This document shows positions 10,797 through 21,164 of a stretch of 33,800 nucleotides of DNA, piece after piece. Origin of the DNA: Acidimicrobiia bacterium (GTDB lineage: Bacteria > Actinomycetota > Acidimicrobiia > Acidimicrobiales > Aldehydirespiratoraceae); the NCBI GenBank assembly GCA_030432715.1, contig JAUIML010000009.1, positions 1-33,800 on the forward strand, read 5' to 3'. Within the stretch, counting starts at the first letter, position 1; the number at the start of each line of letters is the position of its first letter. The notes beneath the pieces are model-generated. The model was not told the origin of the DNA. It did no database searches and saw nothing but the letters and a program-made list of their open reading frames with translations. A program made the translations under genes and the position numbers.

Positions 10797-11705
10797 CTAG
10801 GTGGCCTCGATCTCGGACTCCCGCGGCGGCTCACCGGCCGCGTCGAACGCCTGCGCCACGTCGGAGTAGGTGAGCCGGCCACCTTCGCGGCGCCGGTCGA
10901 GGTCGCCCTGGCGGAGGCGAGCGGTGTGACGGAAGAACCGCAGGGCGATCATGCCCCAGAGGTAGAACCCGCCGACCACCTTCATGATCGCACCGGCGAG
11001 CTGCTGGTCGTCGGTGGGGTTGATGCCCCAGAGGTTCGTCTCCTTGTCGTAGGCCTCGTAGACGACGCCCTCGGCGAAGGTGAGCCACCCCGCCGGCACG
11101 GTGGGCACGATCGACATCAAGAAGAGATAGACGAGCTTGCCGGGCTCGCTCATCTGGACTTCCTTGAGCGGGCCGAGCACGGGGAACCACATCAGCAGCG
11201 CCGAGAAGAACACGGCGAGGTGGATCATGTAGTGGAACGCGCCGTTCTCCGAACTCGTGTTGACCACGGCGCCCCAGTGGGTCAGCACCTGGAGGATGTT
11301 GAAGATCACGCCGGCCACGATCGGCCTCGTGAGCACCCCCAGGATCTTGGACGTGATGCCGCCGTCGAGCACCAGGAGGCGGGCGAGCCACTCGGGCATC
11401 GCCAGGAGCAACAGCGGAGGCACGATGAACGCGATCAGCAGGTGCTGGAGCATGTGGACCGAGTAGAGGTACTCCTCGCCGATGTCGTGCATCGGATAGT
11501 CGGCCGCGATCCAGAGGAGGACGACGCCGGCGAGGAAGTAGCGCTTCTGGGCGGTGGTGACCACCGGCTCGCCCTCGGCGACCACCAGCGGACCGATGGC
11601 GCGCGTGGCGTAGACGCCGAGCCCGACGATGCCCGCGATCAGGAGCCAGACCTCCGGGTGGGCCTCGAAGGCCCAGGGACTCACGGCGAGGAGGTTCGCC
11701 GCCAT
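10797..11705 (-). CDS. ctaG: caa3-type cytochrome c oxidase assembly factor CtaG
   Basis: Multi-TM; YLYSVHMLQHLLIAFIVPPLLLLAMPEW; last gene of the oxidase operon. Confidence 0.85.
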   Translation of the reverse strand: MAANLLAVSPWAFEAHPEVWLLIAGIVGLGVYATRAIGPLVVAEGEPVVTTAQKRYFLAGVVLLWIAADYPMHDIGEEYLYSVHMLQHLLIAFIVPPLLLLAMPEWLARLLVLDGGITSKILGVLTRPIVAGVIFNILQVLTHWGAVVNTSSENGAFHYMIHLAVFFSALLMWFPVLGPLKEVQMSEPGKLVYLFLMSIVPTVPAGWLTFAEGVVYEAYDKETNLWGINPTDDQQLAGAIMKVVGGFYLWGMIALRFFRHTARLRQGDLDRRREGGRLTYSDVAQAFDAAGEPPRESEIEAT

Positions 11706-11709
11706 GTCA

Positions 11710-12045
11710 TCAGGCCCAGAACTCGAACGCGGCGAGGGCGATGACGTAGACGCCGGTCGCCAGGATCAGCCCGCCCACGAACAGCTGGCTGAAGATCTTG
11801 TTGTCGAAGCGCAGGTGCATGAACCAGGTCGCCACCAGATAGAACTTCACGACCATCAGGAACATGAGCGTGGCGATGGTGACCGAAGTGTTCTCGAAGA
11901 TCGGCAGGGCCGACTCGAAGTAGGTCAGGACCTCGATGCCGGTGAAGACGGCGAGGATCAGGGCGATCTTGATGTAGGCCCAGTCGGACGGATGCTCGTG
12001 GGCATCGTCGTGGTCGACGTGCGGCTCGGTGAGGGTCTCGCTCAT
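11710..12045 (-). CDS. Cytochrome c oxidase subunit IV family protein
   Basis: YIKIALILAVFTGIEVLTYF...MVVKFYLVATWFMHLRFDNKIF. Confidence 0.9.
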   Translation of the reverse strand: MSETLTEPHVDHDDAHEHPSDWAYIKIALILAVFTGIEVLTYFESALPIFENTSVTIATLMFLMVVKFYLVATWFMHLRFDNKIFSQLFVGGLILATGVYVIALAAFEFWA

Positions 12046-12060
12046 GATCGGGTGCTCCGC

Positions 12061-12699
12061 TTACTCGACGGGGATCAGGTAGATGACGGTGAAGATGAAG
12101 ATCCACACCACATCCACGAAGTGCCAGTAGAGGCCGACGATCTCGACGGTCTCGGTGTTTTTCGGGGTCAGCTTCCCCTGTTTCGACGCCACGAACAGCG
12201 ACATGAGCATCACGATGCCGAGGCTCACGTGGACACCGTGGAAGCCGGTGAGGGTGAAGAAGGCCGAGCTGGCCGGGTTGTGGGTGAAACCGACGCCTTC
12301 CCGCAGGAAGCTCGTGAACTCGTAGACCTGACCGCCGATGAAGACACCGCCGAGCATGGCCGTGCTCAGGAGCCAGGCCCGGGTGGCCTGGTTGTCACCG
12401 CGAGTCAGCGCCGAAAGTGCGAGCACCATCGTGAGTGAGCTCATCAGCAGCACGAACGAACTCACCGACGTGAACGGGATGTCGAAGATGTCGGTGGGGA
12501 TCGTGGTGTTGTCGGGCCCCGGGCCACGGCGGGTCTTGTAGAGCAGGTAGGTCGAGATCAACCCGCCGAAGAGCAGACACTCGGAGCCGAGGAAGGCCCA
12601 CATCGCCAACTTGGTGTTGGAGATGCCGGTCGACGTGTGGTGCTCGTCGTGGCCATCGGCGGCGTGGGTGTCGGGACTGTCGATGGTCGCGGTCGCCAT
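12061..12699 (-). CDS. ctaE: Cytochrome c oxidase subunit III (canonical)
   Basis: WAFLGSECLLFGGLISTYLLYK, GFHGVHVSLG, GLYWHFVDVVWIFIFTVIYL. Confidence 0.95.
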   Translation of the reverse strand: MATATIDSPDTHAADGHDEHHTSTGISNTKLAMWAFLGSECLLFGGLISTYLLYKTRRGPGPDNTTIPTDIFDIPFTSVSSFVLLMSSLTMVLALSALTRGDNQATRAWLLSTAMLGGVFIGGQVYEFTSFLREGVGFTHNPASSAFFTLTGFHGVHVSLGIVMLMSLFVASKQGKLTPKNTETVEIVGLYWHFVDVVWIFIFTVIYLIPVE

Positions 12700-12701
12700 G
12701 A

Positions 12702-14723
12702 TCACTCGCCTCCTTCGGCGCCGGCGGTGACCGGTTCGCTGTCGTCGGCGGCGTGATCGTCGCCACCATCGTCGTCATCGTCGTGATGATCGTCGTGACC
12801 GTGGCCGTGGTCGGCATCGGGGTCGTCGACGGGCTCGAGCGCCCACGAGTAGATGGCGAGACCGGTGAGGGCGCCGCCGACCACGGCGAGCCACAGGTTG
12901 AAGATCAGGCCGTAGCCGATCAGGGGCAGGCCCAGGGCGAGCACGAGCGGCCAGAACGACGGCGCCGGCAGGTGCACGCCGGTGGCGGACCCGTCCTGGG
13001 CGGCCTCCTCGATGGTGGCGATGCGCACGACCCGCTTGTTCTCGTCGTACCCGTACTTGCGGTGCCACCACTCGTCTTCGCTCTCCACGACCGGGATCGT
13101 GTCGAAGTTGTGCTCGGGGGTGGGCGACGGCAGCATCCACTCGAGGCTGCGGGCATCCCACGGGTCGGGGCCCGGGGCCGGCAGGTCGGCTGCATCGCGA
13201 CGCGACTTCCACACGTTGAAGAAGAAGATGAGCACGCCGAGGGCGATGATGAACGAGCCGATCGTGGCGACCAGGTTCCAGAACTCGAAGCCGTAGCCGG
13301 CGGCGTAGGTGTCGATCCGGCGGCTCATGCCCTGCAGGCCGACCACGTGCATCGGGCCGAACGTCAGGTTGAAGCCGACCAGGATCACCCAGAAGTGGAC
13401 CTTGCCCCAGAACTCGTTGAGGCAATGGCCGAAGATCTTGGGCCACCAGAAGTAGAGGCCGCCCATCAGACCGAGCACGCCGCCACCGAAGATCACATAG
13501 TGGAAGTGGGCGACGATGTAGTAGGTGTCGGTCTGCTGGCTGTCGGCGGGAGCCAAGGAGTGGGTGACACCCGACAGGCCGCCGATGGTGAACATCGCAA
13601 CGGTGCCCACGGCGAAGAGCATCGCGGTGGTGAACCGCAACTTGCCACCCCACATCGTGGCCAACCAGTTGAGGATCTTCACGCCGGTCGGCACCGCGAT
13701 GAACATGGTCGACAGCGAGAACGCGGCGACCGAGAACGGCCCGATGCCCGACACGAACATGTGGTGGGCCCACACGCCCCAGCCCATGAACCCGATGGCG
13801 ATGCCGGAGAACACCATGAACGAGTAGCCGAAGATCGGCTTGCGGCTGAACGTCGGGATGATCTCGGAGATGATGCCGAAGCTCGGCAGGATGATGATGT
13901 ACACCTCCGGATGTCCGAAGATCCAGAAGAGGTGTTGCCAGAGCAATGGGTCGCCGCCGGTCTCCGGATTGAAGAACTGGGCGTCGAAGAGCCGGTCGAA
14001 CATCAGCAGGAACAGGGCGACCGTGATCACCGGCAGGGCGAACAGCAGCAGGAACTGCGTGACGAGCAGCATCCAGGTGAGCACGGGCATGCGGAACAGG
14101 GTCATGCCCGGCGCCCGCATGTTGAGCACGGTCACGATCAGGTTCGCAGCCGAGATCAGCGACGCGACACCCGCGATCTGCAGACCGATCACGTAGAAGT
14201 CGACGCCATGGCTGGGCGAGAACGCCAGCCCGCTGTTGGGTGAATAGCAGAACCAACCGCAGTCGGCGCCACCTCCGCCGACGATCCACGAGGTGTTGAG
14301 GAAGACCGCGCCCGAGATCCAGATCCAGAACGAAAGCGCGTTGAGACGGGGGAACGCCACGTCTCGCGCGCCGATCTGGAGCGGAATGAGGTAGTTCGCG
14401 AAGGCGGCGGCCAGCGGCATGATGAAGAGGAACACCATCGTGACGCCGTGCATCGTGAAGACCTGGTTGTACACCTCGGCCGAAAGGATCTGTCCGTCGG
14501 GTGCGGCCAACTGCAGACGGATGAGCAGCGCCTCGATGCCACCGACCACGAAGAAGAACATCGCGGCGACGCCGTACATGATGCCGATCTTCTTGTGATC
14601 GACGGTGCTGAGCCAGTCACGCCAGCCGTTGCCGCCCTTGGGGCGGGTGAGCGCGCCGAGCGGGCGTTCGACCGTCGCGGCTTCGCCCGATGTCAGGGCG
14701 AGGGGTTCTTCGGTGATCGCCAT
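12702..14723 (-). CDS. ctaD: Cytochrome c oxidase subunit I (canonical ligand set, extended C-terminus)
   Basis: FTMHGVTM, GHPEVYIIILP, WAHHMF, AHFHYV all present. Confidence 0.98.
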   Translation of the reverse strand: MAITEEPLALTSGEAATVERPLGALTRPKGGNGWRDWLSTVDHKKIGIMYGVAAMFFFVVGGIEALLIRLQLAAPDGQILSAEVYNQVFTMHGVTMVFLFIMPLAAAFANYLIPLQIGARDVAFPRLNALSFWIWISGAVFLNTSWIVGGGGADCGWFCYSPNSGLAFSPSHGVDFYVIGLQIAGVASLISAANLIVTVLNMRAPGMTLFRMPVLTWMLLVTQFLLLFALPVITVALFLLMFDRLFDAQFFNPETGGDPLLWQHLFWIFGHPEVYIIILPSFGIISEIIPTFSRKPIFGYSFMVFSGIAIGFMGWGVWAHHMFVSGIGPFSVAAFSLSTMFIAVPTGVKILNWLATMWGGKLRFTTAMLFAVGTVAMFTIGGLSGVTHSLAPADSQQTDTYYIVAHFHYVIFGGGVLGLMGGLYFWWPKIFGHCLNEFWGKVHFWVILVGFNLTFGPMHVVGLQGMSRRIDTYAAGYGFEFWNLVATIGSFIIALGVLIFFFNVWKSRRDAADLPAPGPDPWDARSLEWMLPSPTPEHNFDTIPVVESEDEWWHRKYGYDENKRVVRIATIEEAAQDGSATGVHLPAPSFWPLVLALGLPLIGYGLIFNLWLAVVGGALTGLAIYSWALEPVDDPDADHGHGHDDHHDDDDDGGDDHAADDSEPVTAGAEGGE

Positions 14724-14724
14724 C

Positions 14725-16020
14725 TCACTCCACCTCCGTGGCCGCGATGCGTTCATCGGACGGGCGGGGGCCCAGTGTCTCGAGGAAATCGATCACGTCA
14801 CTGATCTGTCGTTCGGTCAGGTTTCGGTTGGGCATGCCACGGGGCAGCTCGCCGTCGGCAAGGTCGTTCGCGAAGTTGGCTTTCACGTCGTTCGGATTGC
14901 GAATCCATGCGGCGAGATCGTCGCGGTTGAAGGTGCCGTCGTCGTTGTAGAGATCGAAGATGGCGCCGGCGAACGTGGTGTTGTTCGCGAAGTGGGTGAG
15001 GTTCGGGGCCGAGCCCGACACGACCTCTGCCCCGTCGTAGTCGAGGTCGTTGAGCCCGTCGACCAGATGGCAGGACGCGCACTGGGCGACGAAGGTGTCG
15101 AGGCCACGGAGGACGCCACTGGCATCCTCGGAGACGGTGGCGGGTTCGCCGGCCCGGTACGACGCGACATAGGGCTGGAGCTCTTCGCCGAACGTGGCCG
15201 GCGACATCTGCATGTCGATCCACTGCTGGAAGTCGGCTTCGTCCATCGCGATCGCCTGCATGCGCATGCGGCTGTGGGACAGGCCACAGAACTCGGTGCA
15301 CTGCCCGAAGTAGACGCCGGGGTCGTCGGCTTCGATCTTCCAGGGCGAGAACCGGCCCGGCACGGCGTCGCGCTTGCCGTTGAGACGGGGGATCCAGTGC
15401 GAGTGGATCACGTCTCGCGACGTGACCACGAGGTCGACCTCGACCCCGGTGGGGATGGCGAACTGTCCGGAGGTGACGATGTCGGCCGGCGGCAGGTCGC
15501 GCGGGTCTTCGAGCATCGATGCATCCAGATCGAACTCGTCGAGGTAGTAGCGGTACTCCCACCACCACTGCTGGCCGACGACCACGATGGTCGGGTCCCA
15601 CATGCGGGCCTCACCGTCGACCTCGATCTCGATGGCGGCGGCTTCGTCCTTGTTGATCGAGATGTGGGTGACGATCGTGAGGACCGCGATGATCACCATG
15701 ATCACGGCCGGCACGATGGTCCAGGTGATCTCGAGCGTGTTGTTGTGGGAGACCTGCTCGGGGAACTCGTCGTCGCCCTCGTAGGTGGGCACACGGTTCT
15801 TGAGGGCGAGCCACAGCACGGCGCCGCAGATCAGCACCAGGACGAGCCCGGCCACGATGAAGACCGGGAGGACCAGTCCGTAGATCTCGTCGGCCGTGCC
15901 GCTCTCGGGCTTCAGGGTGTCGAGTTCGGCGTCGCTCGCGCAACCGGCCAGCGTGAGGCCCAGAAGGGCGACGACACCTGCGCCGGGGATACGGCGCCAG
16001 AAGTTGGACTTGTCACTCAC
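14725..16020 (-). CDS. ctaC: Cytochrome c oxidase subunit II with fused cytochrome c domain
   Basis: Lipobox LTLAGCASD, CuA region GQCTEFCGLSHSRM, C-terminal haem motif CASCH; GTG start at 16020. Confidence 0.95.
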   Translation of the reverse strand: MSDKSNFWRRIPGAGVVALLGLTLAGCASDAELDTLKPESGTADEIYGLVLPVFIVAGLVLVLICGAVLWLALKNRVPTYEGDDEFPEQVSHNNTLEITWTIVPAVIMVIIAVLTIVTHISINKDEAAAIEIEVDGEARMWDPTIVVVGQQWWWEYRYYLDEFDLDASMLEDPRDLPPADIVTSGQFAIPTGVEVDLVVTSRDVIHSHWIPRLNGKRDAVPGRFSPWKIEADDPGVYFGQCTEFCGLSHSRMRMQAIAMDEADFQQWIDMQMSPATFGEELQPYVASYRAGEPATVSEDASGVLRGLDTFVAQCASCHLVDGLNDLDYDGAEVVSGSAPNLTHFANNTTFAGAIFDLYNDDGTFNRDDLAAWIRNPNDVKANFANDLADGELPRGMPNRNLTERQISDVIDFLETLGPRPSDERIAATEVE

Positions 16021-16855
16021 TGTCAGTCTCTCCGTCTGAGTGGTCGCCATCGCTGCCTTCGTCGCTGTGTTCCGCGTCGTCGCTGTGTTCCGCGTCGTCG
16101 CCGTGCTCGGAGTGGTGCTCTTCGAACTCACGCTCACCGTCGACGGCGGCCCACACGCCACCGCCGAGCACCGCCACACCGACGACGAGGGCGCCGCCGG
16201 CGATCAGGTTGCGGTTGAACTTGCGGTCCGACGCCGCCAGGGTGCCGAGCCCGAGGATCAGCACCGCGACGACACCGGCGATCACGACGGCCCCGAGCTT
16301 CGTGGTGTTGAGGAGGATGCGGGAGACGGCCAGCACACCCAGCGCGACCGCCGCGGCCCCGGCCGCCGGGATCTCGATCGGTGCCATGATCCGGTTGCGC
16401 AGGGCCCGATTGGCTTCGGGGTCGCCGGTCGCCCGGTCGGCCCACGCGTCCATCATCCACTCGACCGCGACCGCACCCACGATCACCAGGCCGGTGATGA
16501 AGACCGCGGTGTTGAGCACGAGGCCGATGGCCATCGTGCCGACACCGAACGCACCGACGACCGGCCAGAAGCTGCTGGTGACGGGTGTGGTGGGGGCGAT
16601 GTCGTCGACACCCATGTAGTCGGCCTGGTCGGCCGGGTCGGCGTCGCGGAAGAAGATGAGGGTGAGGGCGATGCCGATGGCCGACACTCCCGTGCCCACG
16701 AGCAGGCCGTAGCCGAGGTGCTCGCCGACGCCGCCCTTCCACCCGAGTGACAGCGGACCCATGTGGTTGCCGCCGCTGGTGTAGCCGTAGAGGACACCGG
16801 CCGTCACCAAGGCGACGCCGATGCCGAAGAAGAACTTGAAGCCCGTTGTGAACAT
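16013..16855 (-). CDS. Uncharacterised multi-TM protein within the oxidase operon, His/Asp/Ser-rich C-terminal tail
   Basis: 280 aa; overlaps the ctaC start by 8 nt; tail EEHHSEHGDDAEHSDDAEHSDEGSDGDHSDGETDSE. Confidence 0.8.
   Translation of the reverse strand: MFTTGFKFFFGIGVALVTAGVLYGYTSGGNHMGPLSLGWKGGVGEHLGYGLLVGTGVSAIGIALTLIFFRDADPADQADYMGVDDIAPTTPVTSSFWPVVGAFGVGTMAIGLVLNTAVFITGLVIVGAVAVEWMMDAWADRATGDPEANRALRNRIMAPIEIPAAGAAAVALGVLAVSRILLNTTKLGAVVIAGVVAVLILGLGTLAASDRKFNRNLIAGGALVVGVAVLGGGVWAAVDGEREFEEHHSEHGDDAEHSDDAEHSDEGSDGDHSDGETDSE
16061..16096. repeat. 18-bp in-frame tandem duplication encoding the acidic/His tail
   Basis: GTCGCTGTGTTCCGCGTC twice, then a diverged third copy GTCGCCGTGCTC. 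Confidence 0.9.
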
Positions 16856-16862
16856 CTGATCC

Positions 16863-17453
16863 CTACTTCGTGACGAAGATGACGTACCAGGCGATCGCGT
16901 ACATGGCGACGACTGTGTTCCAGTAGAAAGCGGCCGCAGCGACTGCGTCGGCCTTGCGCGGACCGAACTGCCCGATGACGGCCCGCAGGAAGGTGAGCGT
17001 GACGAAGCCGACGGCCGCGATCATGAACACGACGAAGGTGCCGAGCACGAGGAAGAACATGAACTCCGAGTTCGAGCCGGAAAGGGCGAACCCGCTGTCG
17101 TTGATGATGAACCAGAGCTGGTTGAACACCGCGGCACCGAAAAGACCCGAGAGGACCAGGGCGACCAGGGCGTTGGTGCGATCACCCGCGTTGATCGCCT
17201 GCACCGCCCATTGCACGGTGAAGATCGAGAGAATGAGGGTGGCGAAGACGAACCCGGCCGGGCCGAGCTCGACCGCACCGTCGGCGAACCACTCGGCTCC
17301 GTCGGTGCGGGCCTGGGCCCGTTCGCTGATGTAGACGAGCACGACGCCCAGGAACGCCATGAACGAGGCAGCCGAGGCGAACATCGTGCCGACCAGGACC
17401 GTGCGGGGACGGGTGACCTCAGCCGCGGGGAGACCGGTGGTGGTGGCGGTCAT
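16863..17453 (-). CDS. COX3-like membrane protein, degenerate
   Basis: Size and TM pattern of COX3; terminal AFYWNTVVAMYAIAWYVIFV where the canonical subunit reads YWHFVDVVWIFIF. Confidence 0.75.
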   Translation of the reverse strand: MTATTTGLPAAEVTRPRTVLVGTMFASAASFMAFLGVVLVYISERAQARTDGAEWFADGAVELGPAGFVFATLILSIFTVQWAVQAINAGDRTNALVALVLSGLFGAAVFNQLWFIINDSGFALSGSNSEFMFFLVLGTFVVFMIAAVGFVTLTFLRAVIGQFGPRKADAVAAAAFYWNTVVAMYAIAWYVIFVTK

Positions 17454-19106
17454 CTAGGACTCCTCCCCTTCGTCGGACGACACATCGAGCAGGGGTGCCT
17501 CGGAGGTGACGAGCGCGGGCGGTTCCGCGAAGTTGCCGGGCGGGGGCGGGGTGGCGGTGGACCATTCGAGGGTCTGGCCGCCCCACGGGTCGTCGGCGGT
17601 GCCGGCGCCACCGGTACGCATGGCGTTGAGCAGCGTGGCCAGGGCACCGACCGCACCGAGCGCGATGACGATCATGCCCACGAGCGCCACGGTGTTGAGC
17701 ACGTCGCCGGCGTCTTCGGTGGGGGCGACGAGTGGGTTGTTGGCGGTCTCGAAGAATCCGTTGATGACCTGCGAGGCGCCGACGACGAGGCCGCCGAGCA
17801 CGACGAGCATGACGGCCCCGCGACCGGCCACGGGCGACAGTTCGTGACCGCACACCTTCGGACTCCAGAACCAGATGGCGCCGATGGCGGAGGCCACTGC
17901 GGCGAACAGCACGAGGCTCATGACCCCGGCGACGGTGACCCGATCGCCGAGTTCGAAGGGCTCGATGACACGGGCGACACCCGCAGCCGTGCCGGCCAGG
18001 AGGAGCAGCCCACCGCCGAGTGCGCCGAGGAGGTGCGCGGGCGGCACGCCCTGCACGCCGCGACCACGGACCAGGGAGTCGGCGGCGCCCCCGAGGGCAC
18101 CGAGCACCGGGAGGATGGCGGCGAGACCGAAGGCGATGAACACGAACTTCTCGTCGTAGCGCACCACGGCGTTGTTGGTCGGCTGGAAGAACGGCTGGGC
18201 CCAGGCCCCGACCGACAGGAGACCGAACACGCCGATCAGGCCCATCGAGAGTCCGTGGCGAGCCGCACGCACGCCCGCGGCGACGGGGACGATCGAGCCG
18301 AGCACACCGAGGACGGGGATGGCGAAGGCGTAGACCTGGGGCTGTTCGACCACCCAGGCGATCTGGGCGTAGGCCCCGAGATCTCCGCTGAGGTCGCCGC
18401 CGAAGCTGCCGGGACCGTTGTGGATGTCGACGTAGGCGATGAGCATGTTGGCCAGCAGCACCGGCAGCGTCAGGAGCCACACCGAGGTGGCGACGAGCAT
18501 CGACCAGGCGAACAGCGGCACTCGCAGCAGCGTCATGCCCTTCACCCGCATGGACACGACGGTGGTCGCGATGCAGATCGACGCGAGCAGCAGCGAGAGC
18601 ACGACCATGGCGAGACCGACGATCGACAGGGCGATCGCTTCCCGTTCCTCGTTGCTGACCCGGTCGACGGCGCCCCACCCACCGTTGGCGAGAACGGCGG
18701 CGATGGTGATGCCGGCGCCGATGATGAAGGCCCACACGGCGGCATGGGCCGCACGGGGGAAGGCGATGTTGGTCGAGCCGACCTGCATCGGCACGACGAC
18801 CGTGGCGATGCCGATGAACAGCGGCGCCGCCACCAGCAGGGCGAGACCGAGGCGGTAGAGGGCCCAGACCTGGAAGAAGGCGTTGTCGCCCCCGAAGAGG
18901 TCGGTCGACTCGCTGTCGACGCGTTCGAAGCCGAGCAGGACGCCCAGCACGACGGCACCGACGAGCAGCACCATGCCGGCCCGCAGCCAGAGACGCCCGA
19001 TGCTCTTGTGGTCGGTGGTGGTGAGGGCGTCGTAGAGCCCCGCCACGACAGGCGCGGGAACCGCCGAAGCGGTGTCGTTCGCCGGCGGTGATTCGGTCAT
19101 CGTCAT
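17454..19106 (-). CDS. COX1 paralogue lacking all haem/CuB histidine ligands
   Basis: Alignable to the 12702-14723 COX1 over its main body (TTTDHKSIG, VVPMQVGSTNIAFPR, EQPQVY, AWAQPFF, WFWSPKVCGHEL, DDPWGGQTLEWSTATPPPPGNF) but with ligands replaced. Confidence 0.88.
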   Translation of the reverse strand: MTMTESPPANDTASAVPAPVVAGLYDALTTTDHKSIGRLWLRAGMVLLVGAVVLGVLLGFERVDSESTDLFGGDNAFFQVWALYRLGLALLVAAPLFIGIATVVVPMQVGSTNIAFPRAAHAAVWAFIIGAGITIAAVLANGGWGAVDRVSNEEREAIALSIVGLAMVVLSLLLASICIATTVVSMRVKGMTLLRVPLFAWSMLVATSVWLLTLPVLLANMLIAYVDIHNGPGSFGGDLSGDLGAYAQIAWVVEQPQVYAFAIPVLGVLGSIVPVAAGVRAARHGLSMGLIGVFGLLSVGAWAQPFFQPTNNAVVRYDEKFVFIAFGLAAILPVLGALGGAADSLVRGRGVQGVPPAHLLGALGGGLLLLAGTAAGVARVIEPFELGDRVTVAGVMSLVLFAAVASAIGAIWFWSPKVCGHELSPVAGRGAVMLVVLGGLVVGASQVINGFFETANNPLVAPTEDAGDVLNTVALVGMIVIALGAVGALATLLNAMRTGGAGTADDPWGGQTLEWSTATPPPPGNFAEPPALVTSEAPLLDVSSDEGEES

Positions 19107-19308: not shown

Positions 19309-20205
19309 TCAGAAGCCGTTGCGAACGATCTCGTCGGCCGCCATCGCGCCGAACAGCAGGGTCACGTAGGTGATCGACCAACCGAACAGCCGCATGGCCA
19401 GGGCGGGCTCCGGACGACGGAAGACCTGCACGGCGAGGCCGGTGAAGACGGCACCGAGCAGCACCGCGGCGATGTAATAGGTGAGCCCCATGTCGGCGAC
19501 GGGGCCGAACAGCAGGGTGAGCGCCCAGAGCAGCACGGTGTAGGCCAGGATGCGCGTCGCGGTGGTGCGCAGCGACGCCACCGCCGGGAGCATGGGCACG
19601 TCGGCGGCCTGGTAGTCGTCCTTGTAGCGGATGGCGAGGGCCCAGAAGTGGGGCGGCGTCCAGTAGAAGATGATGGCGAAGAGCACCACCGGCGGCCAGT
19701 CGAGCTCGTTGGTGACCGATGACCACCCGACCAGCACCGGGACGGCACCGGCGGCGCCGCCGATGACGATGTTGCGGGTGGAGGTGCGCTTCAACCACAT
19801 CGTGTAGACGAAGACGTAGAAGAGGGTCGCCGACACGGCCAGCACGGCCGAGAGCAGGTTGACGAAGCCCCACAGCCAGGCGAACGCGGCGATCTCCACC
19901 GCAAAGGCGAAGACCAACGCCTCTCGCGGCGTGACCTCGCCTGCCGGAAGCGGGCGGTTCTTGGTTCGCTCCATCAGCCGATCGATGTCGCGATCGATGT
20001 ACATGTTGAACGCGTTCGCCCCGCCGGCGGCGAGGGTGCCGCCGATGACGGTTGCGGCCATGAGCCAGAGCGAGGGCACTCCGCCCTCGGCCACGATCAT
20101 GGTCGGCACCGTCGTGATCAGCAGGAGCTCGATGATCCGCGGCTTGGTCAGCGCGATGAACGCGAGCGCACGCGGACGCTGACGAGTGGGGACGGTGGCG
20201 GTCAC
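19309..20205 (-). CDS. ctaB: Protohaem IX farnesyltransferase (haem O synthase)
   Basis: [41 protein letters not shown]. Confidence 0.97.
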
Positions 20206-20264
20206 GATCGAAAGGCTAACGGCCGAGGGGGCATCACCGCCCAACGGGGCCGTACGCTTTGCTC

Positions 20265-21164
20265 GTGAGTCCGGCGCGCTATCTCTCCCTGACCCGAGCG
20301 GCCCTGTGGTCGCTGACGATCATCGTGATCACCGGCGCGAGCGTCCGCCTGACCGGTTCCGGCCTCGGCTGCTCCGATTGGCCGAATTGCGAAGAGGACC
20401 AGCTGGTGTCCGACCTCGAGTACCACGGCATGATCGAGTTCGGGAACCGGATGTTCACGGGCGTGGTCGCGTTGGCCGTCATCGGTGCGGTGCTCGGGTC
20501 GCTGCTCCGGCGGCCGAAGCGGGCCGACCTGACCCGGCTGTCCTGGGGTCTCGTCGCCGGCGTCGTTGCCCAGATCGTGCTGGGTGGCCTCCTGGTCAAG
20601 ACCGAACTCGACCCCCGTTTCACCATGGGCCACTTCCTTCTGTCGATGGTGCTCCTCTGGAACGCCACCGTCCTGGTCCACCGCGCCGGCCTGCCCGACG
20701 AGCCGACCGACAGACCGACCGATGCCGACTCGGTTCGCCGAGTCACCCGCGTCGTGATGCTCATCGGCATCGTCGTGCTGGTCATGGGAACCATCGTCAC
20801 GGGGTCGGGCCCGCACTCGGGCAGCGACGAGGAGGAGGTGGCCGAGCGGCTGCCGTTCCTCGTGCGCGACGTGACCCGCATCCACAGCATCACCGCGTTG
20901 CTGCTGCTCGGTGCCGTCGTGTATGTCCTCTGGCTGGCCGACCAGCGCGGCCTCGTCGACGTTCGCCGTGCCGCCCTGCTCGTGACGGGCCTCGTGGTGG
21001 CCCAGGGAGTGATCGGCTACTGGCAGTACTTCACCGGCGTGCCGGTGCTGCTGGTCGGCATCCACGTGACCCTGGCGTCGATCGCCTGGATCAACATCGT
21101 CCGTCTCGACCTCGAGGCGAGCCTGATCGGGGCACCCGCTGCGGATCGGGTGTCGACCTCGTGA
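20265..21164 (+). CDS. ctaA: Haem A synthase (COX15/CtaA)
   Basis: [45 protein letters not shown] start. Confidence 0.93.

Follow-up and report, generated by a model that had tools for sequence, protein, structure and literature searches.

Acidimicrobiales carry, inside the operon of a caa3-type oxidase, a set of three genes (here D2, E2 and X) that we think is a decayed CtaD-CtaE-CtaF module, redox-dead and kept as a structural partner for the oxidase, a reading to which we give a probability of about 0.55. The set was studied in a window of 33,800 nucleotides, which is the whole stretch of DNA that was analysed, and in related genomes. The COX1 fold is kept in D2 and its function is changed. 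The sequences provide the losses of ligands and proton channels, a predicted COX1 fold, conserved synteny, purifying selection, kinship with aa3 oxidases and a stepwise loss of cofactor sites, and from these we infer the partner role.

D2 occupies positions 17454..19106 of the window (550 aa, ATG at 19106), as given in the initial annotation, which had left its minus strand unstated. The COX1 homology proposed there is far above chance. The Pfam profile COX1 (PF00115) is matched at 123.5 bits (E 1.3e-35), compared with 523 for the canonical ctaD of the same operon, and the best PDB matches by sequence are the CtaD chains of the mycobacterial bcc-aa3 supercomplex (E about 1e-47). Between D2 and the operon ctaD the identity is 26%. 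D2 stays below the curated cut-off of the NCBIfam model for actinobacterial aa3 CtaD (NF050116, 195.7 bits for a cut-off of 880), and neither Pfam nor NCBIfam returned a subfamily-specific model for it. Structure prediction of D2 alone, which had been suggested, gave an AlphaFold model (47-sequence alignment) with the whole 12-TM COX1 fold over the entire chain (pLDDT 91.1, pTM 0.93). In Foldseek searches it was aligned end to end with COX1 structures at a TM-score of about 0.8, reaching ~0.81 with mycobacterial CtaD.

Members of the haem-copper oxidase superfamily are recognized by six metal ligands, and in the window D2 all six haem and CuB histidines are substituted. The positions were read from an alignment with the neighbouring CtaD and 38 members of the same family, and all codons given here are on the minus strand. 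The helix II His of the low-spin haem is replaced by Tyr84 (18855..18857), the CuB His of helix VI by Gln255 (18342..18344), with the cross-link Tyr of the His-Tyr pair retained as Tyr259, and the CuB His-His of helix VII by Gln304-Pro305 (18192..18197); these three replacements agree with those first described. The His-x-His of helix X has no His counterpart in the window protein. The position of its low-spin haem His falls approximately on Ser397 (17916..17918), where the alignment is uncertain by 1-2 residues; the earlier alignment of this helix differs from ours by one residue in register, which leaves its conclusion unaffected. The statement that all six histidines are lost holds for the window D2 and not for every family member, since genus g2 has a His at the second helix X position, together with Tyr at helix II. 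The His pair of helix II and helix X was found in none of the 39 family sequences compared. Within this set, which includes the window, the substitutions recur (Y84 in 38/39, Q255 in 38/39 and Q304 in 39/39), and 101 columns of the family alignment are at least 95% identical. The ligand-poor clade of the whole order retains, at 80% or more, 33 of the 127 columns that are invariant in true CtaDs, mainly structural Pro, Gly and Trp and the AFPR and LEW motifs.

Besides the ligands, D2 has lost K354, T351, E278, D124 and N131 (Paracoccus-style names), so that neither of the known proton channels is left. The loss of the K-channel (K354 and T351) had been noticed before; that of the D-channel is additional. 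The residues by which the A-type K- and D-channels are recognized, Lys at K354 and Asp at D124, are missing from the window protein and are absent among the commonest residues of every D2 group. With every ligand residue replaced in the alignment, the window D2 should be unable to carry canonical haem a, haem a3 or CuB, as had been anticipated, and judging from its residues and from established oxidase chemistry both catalysis and proton pumping can be excluded for it.

The gene sits, as the initial annotation had recognized, beside a complete oxidase. All on the minus strand, D2 is followed by E2 (16863..17453, 196 aa), a COX3 paralogue with degenerate signature residues, by X (16013..16855, 280 aa), and then by ctaC, which encodes COX2 with a CuA motif and a cytochrome c domain (14725..16050, start at 16050 or 16020), the canonical caa3-type ctaD with every ligand present (12702..14723), the canonical COX3 gene ctaE (12061..12699), a COX4_pro-type subunit IV (11710..12045) and the copper assembly factor Caa3_CtaG (10797..11705). 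D2 had been called the first gene of the operon. In fact ctaB, for haem O synthase (19309..20244, exact start uncertain), precedes D2 on the same strand at a distance of 202 bp; what stands is that from D2 onward the genes abut or overlap, with 0 bp between D2 and E2, whose start codon abuts the D2 stop, 7 bp between E2 and X, and an overlap of X and ctaC. Divergent from the operon, on the plus strand, is ctaA/COX15 (20259..21164). The canonical CtaD bears a C-terminal extension that is Cyt_c_ox_IV-like (PF12270, 25.2 bits, slightly under the cut-off).

The arrangement is widely kept. A D2 match (E <0.001) was obtained in 50 of the 51 same-family genomes searched, some of them fragmented, with nearly all frames intact and D2 normally about 4.3 kb from ctaD. 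In 38 of 38 fetched same-family operons the order is ctaA (divergent), ctaB, D2, E2, X, ctaC, ctaD and ctaE, usually with ctaF and ctaG. The survey of operons that had been suggested also located the D2-E2-X block in many other sampled families of Acidimicrobiales, covering most of the order; one example is the complete Aquihabitans sp. G128 genome (L106). Across 248 genomes from the order, full-length X occurs together with caa3-type ctaD; ctaD is without X in two of them (G075 and G223), because of contig ends, and X is without a complete ctaD in several fragmented ones. In some f30 genomes (L182, L183, L185, L235) the block is beside ctaB, and ctaC-ctaD are kilobases away or on another contig. 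D2 is clearly under purifying selection: pairwise dN/dS (NG86, rough at high GC) has medians of 0.10–0.30 within five genera, near those of ctaC (0.08–0.26), with 0.04–0.15 for ctaD by the same method. D2 evolves 2–3 times faster than ctaD. A few D2 sequences, from fragmented genomes, have an in-frame stop. Neither broken frames nor relaxed selection is the rule for D2, which is retained and intact, as had been supposed, and this well beyond one genome.

Regarding its origin, the initial annotation took D2 for a paralogue of its neighbour. The COX1 homology stands; the tree places the origin in the actinobacterial aa3 lineage. In a maximum likelihood tree (LG+C20, 85 proteins) D2 is monophyletic (support 100/100) and sister to the actinobacterial-type CtaD of other Acidimicrobiia (100/97). 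The operon ctaD belongs to a separate clade, so that an origin of D2 by tandem duplication of the adjacent ctaD was rejected. E2, the COX3 partner of D2, is equally degenerate: it matches COX3 (PF00510) at 24.3 bits, barely above the cut-off of 23.8, and both the conserved Glu and the YWHFVDVVW motif of COX3 are missing from it in the alignment. Its tree puts E2 (100/99) beside actinobacterial CtaE, away from the operon ctaE, and repeats the branching order of the basal D2. Since the two trees agree, the trio probably descends from an aa3-type CtaD-CtaE-CtaF set and not from duplication in place, and D2, E2 and X are three co-inherited genes.

The predicted structure of the window X has 7 TM helices at moderate confidence (pTM 0.51). 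Its top two hits in the fold search are weak and are the CtaF of Corynebacterium and Mycobacterium (7q21_F and 6hwh_S, E 0.03–0.2). Cyt_c_ox_IV (PF12270) is the Pfam family most frequently matched by X (12 of 34 members, best E 9e-5, the window X unmatched), and the resemblance of the N-terminal half to CtaF/Cyt_c_ox_IV is a weak one. The C-terminal half corresponds to the anchor of a cupredoxin protein and matches a membrane-anchored protein in the caa3 operons of other Actinomycetota (L205-L210, L212-L215, L220-L222), which is mostly downstream of ctaG and stands alone, without D2 or E2; full-length X was seen only within the order Acidimicrobiales. A copper domain, lost in the window X, is carried by some X proteins as a C-terminal type-1 cupredoxin with the motif H...C-x2-H-x(2,3)-M (L170, L173-L179, L182, L183, L185, L186, L188 and L189, and also L229, L230, L232, L233 and L236). 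In the lineages with this domain D2, where readable, keeps the haem a ligands. The pairing of a membrane cupredoxin with a CuB-less COX1 is unusual. Three further X proteins (L169, L187, L167) end in a tail of roughly 150 aa, possibly a cupredoxin that has degenerated and lacks copper ligands.

The D2 tree preserves several stages of the loss, and its first two branches retain metal ligands. In basal branch 1 (L170, L173-L177, L186, L188, L189) the helix II His and the helix X His-x-His are kept, apart from one member with Asn at the a3 position; the first CuB ligand is Arg and the helix VII His is missing. Basal branch 2 (L178, L179, L182, L183, L185) has only the helix II and the second helix X His, that is, the low-spin haem a pair. 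Both branches have an X with a C-terminal cupredoxin and its full type-1 copper set, and in both D124 is already Arg and K354 hydrophobic. The remaining D2 clade is without cupredoxin, and the haem a pair is left in three members (L102, L111, L112) and in none of the rest. Out of 92 proteins scored, 13 have cupredoxin and haem pair, 3 the haem pair only, 76 neither and 0 cupredoxin only. The tree supports an order in which CuB and the proton channels were lost first and the haem sites later. Since other lineages keep some haem ligands and the cupredoxin, the module probably goes back to a redox protein that had no CuB.

The persistence of the module after the loss of every cofactor site makes its conserved function most simply structural. 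We think that an actinobacterial aa3-type CtaD-CtaE-CtaF module would have been fixed in the caa3 operon of Acidimicrobiales, of which D2-E2-X would be the remnant and D2 a putative redox-dead subunit-I pseudoenzyme. D2, E2 and X would assemble into a stable membrane module of COX1-COX3-like type and bind the catalytic CtaC-CtaD-CtaE complex, either as a pseudo-protomer or as a scaffold for supercomplex formation or assembly, and would contribute structure rather than electron transfer, oxygen reduction or proton pumping. Among the roles first proposed (partner subunit, scaffold or channel), the partner subunit is the most likely. We also consider, tentatively, a hybrid oxidase, in which the active caa3 core would have acquired as obligate partner a complete but catalytically empty COX1-COX3-COX4-like module of different oxidase ancestry, by way of a type-1 copper protein feeding a CuB-less haem-a COX1.

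A structural partner might link the oxidase to the bc complex. In the M. smegmatis supercomplex the chief III-IV contacts run through CtaE, CtaF and QcrB (PMC8361435), and the QcrB of C. glutamicum has a C-terminal extension with which it docks on CtaDEF (PMC8795186). D2-E2-X is a probable paralogue of this contact set, short only of the CuA subunit. As CtaD, CtaE and CtaF bear the bc-contact surfaces in these related supercomplexes, it is plausible that D2-E2-X possibly links the caa3 oxidase to the bc complex. This version is weakened by a genome of the same genus (L237 2427-6530), whose bc complex has a split cytochrome b (265 aa) and subunit IV (257 aa) of the b6/subunit-IV type; no fused QcrB bearing the C-terminal docking extension was seen there, and docking through that known extension is not directly transferable. 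This arrangement, which differs from the fused actinobacterial QcrB, also includes, at the same locus, a Rieske protein and a cytochrome c carrying two CxxCH motifs.

The main rival to a structural partner is an assembly factor, a role that we consider rather unlikely. D2-E2-X would then serve caa3 biogenesis only transiently, as a template or chaperone that holds haem A, delivers copper through the ancestral cupredoxin or helps subunits to fold, and would be absent from the mature enzyme. The position of the block between ctaB/ctaA and ctaC-ctaG fits this role, as do the haem a ligands and the copper-binding cupredoxin retained by basal members. However, most lineages keep the module without haem ligands or cupredoxin, so that cofactor carriage is not its conserved function. 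Moreover, the window genome and many D2-bearing families have SURF1, and others lack it; D2 as a substitute for SURF1 was rejected, as the SURF1 distribution gives no supporting pattern. Less probable still is an accessory role in electron transfer, by which the module would carry electrons where haem a ligands and cupredoxin persist, the ligand-free lineages being remnants nearing loss. All 13 scored cupredoxin-bearing members indeed have the helix II/helix X His pair, with more such pairs, also accompanied by cupredoxin, in L233 and L236. Yet members of the window type, in several genera, have no haem pair and nevertheless show intact frames and purifying selection, and the co-loss rests on about one event: one or two changes on the tree suffice to explain the states, so that a test of the association (only 2 independent pairs) has no statistical power.

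The conserved polar replacements Y84, Q255, Y259 and Q304 could serve a function within the former active-site cavity, which counts against a structural partner, and a COX1 fold turned into a membrane channel or transporter, with the emptied haem/CuB cavity lined by these Tyr and Gln residues, would account for their conservation in the family. We regard it as quite improbable, as both known proton channels are gone, the replacements vary across the whole D2 clade and D2 is strictly linked to the oxidase operon. That D2 is an ordinary decaying paralogue, a pseudogene on its way out, is scarcely credible in spite of its faster evolution and its few in-frame stops, since the gene is intact in many families of the order and in nearly all of the ~50 genomes of its own family, dN/dS is far below 1, synteny is conserved and many family columns are near-identical.

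The nearest known system to this putative structural partner, by the tree and PDB sequence matches and near the top by fold, is the actinobacterial aa3 CtaD/CtaE/CtaF of the bcc-aa3 supercomplex. The gene set is alike (COX1, COX3 and a weakly CtaF-like protein); D2-E2-X differs in the absence of haem and CuB ligands, of D- and K-channels and of a COX2/CuA partner of its own, in the extra cupredoxin anchor of X, and in sitting in a caa3 operon. With the neighbouring caa3 oxidase (ctaC-ctaD-ctaE-ctaF-ctaG) it has in common the operon and the COX1 and COX3 folds, whereas D2 and ctaD are separate clades. Core1 and Core2 of mitochondrial complex III are a decayed peptidase kept as a structural subunit. 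Like D2, they are decayed enzymes in a respiratory complex; the families are unrelated, and D2 derives from the oxidase's own catalytic subunit. The initial annotation knew of no described function for such a subunit, and searches of the open-access PMC literature on inactive or ligand-less COX1 and on Acidimicrobiia oxidases gave no description of the D2 family.

The D2 clade keeps its fold across much of the order after losing all six ligands, which suggests that the scaffold is selectable by itself. The surviving stages (haem a and a3 ligands without CuB, the haem a pair, none) offer a natural series for the loss of an active site. Moreover, counts of oxidases made by sequence would mistake D2 for a terminal oxidase unless the ligands are checked. 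The window genome holds a third COX1, in a further oxidase with its own COX2, apparently spread over two contigs (L002 and L004, on C268 and C86). By reading of its sequence it appears to be a B-type oxidase, and it was rejected as a relative of D2, as it belongs to another oxidase. Near this further oxidase, contig C268 carries a cytochrome b with a ferredoxin-like domain.
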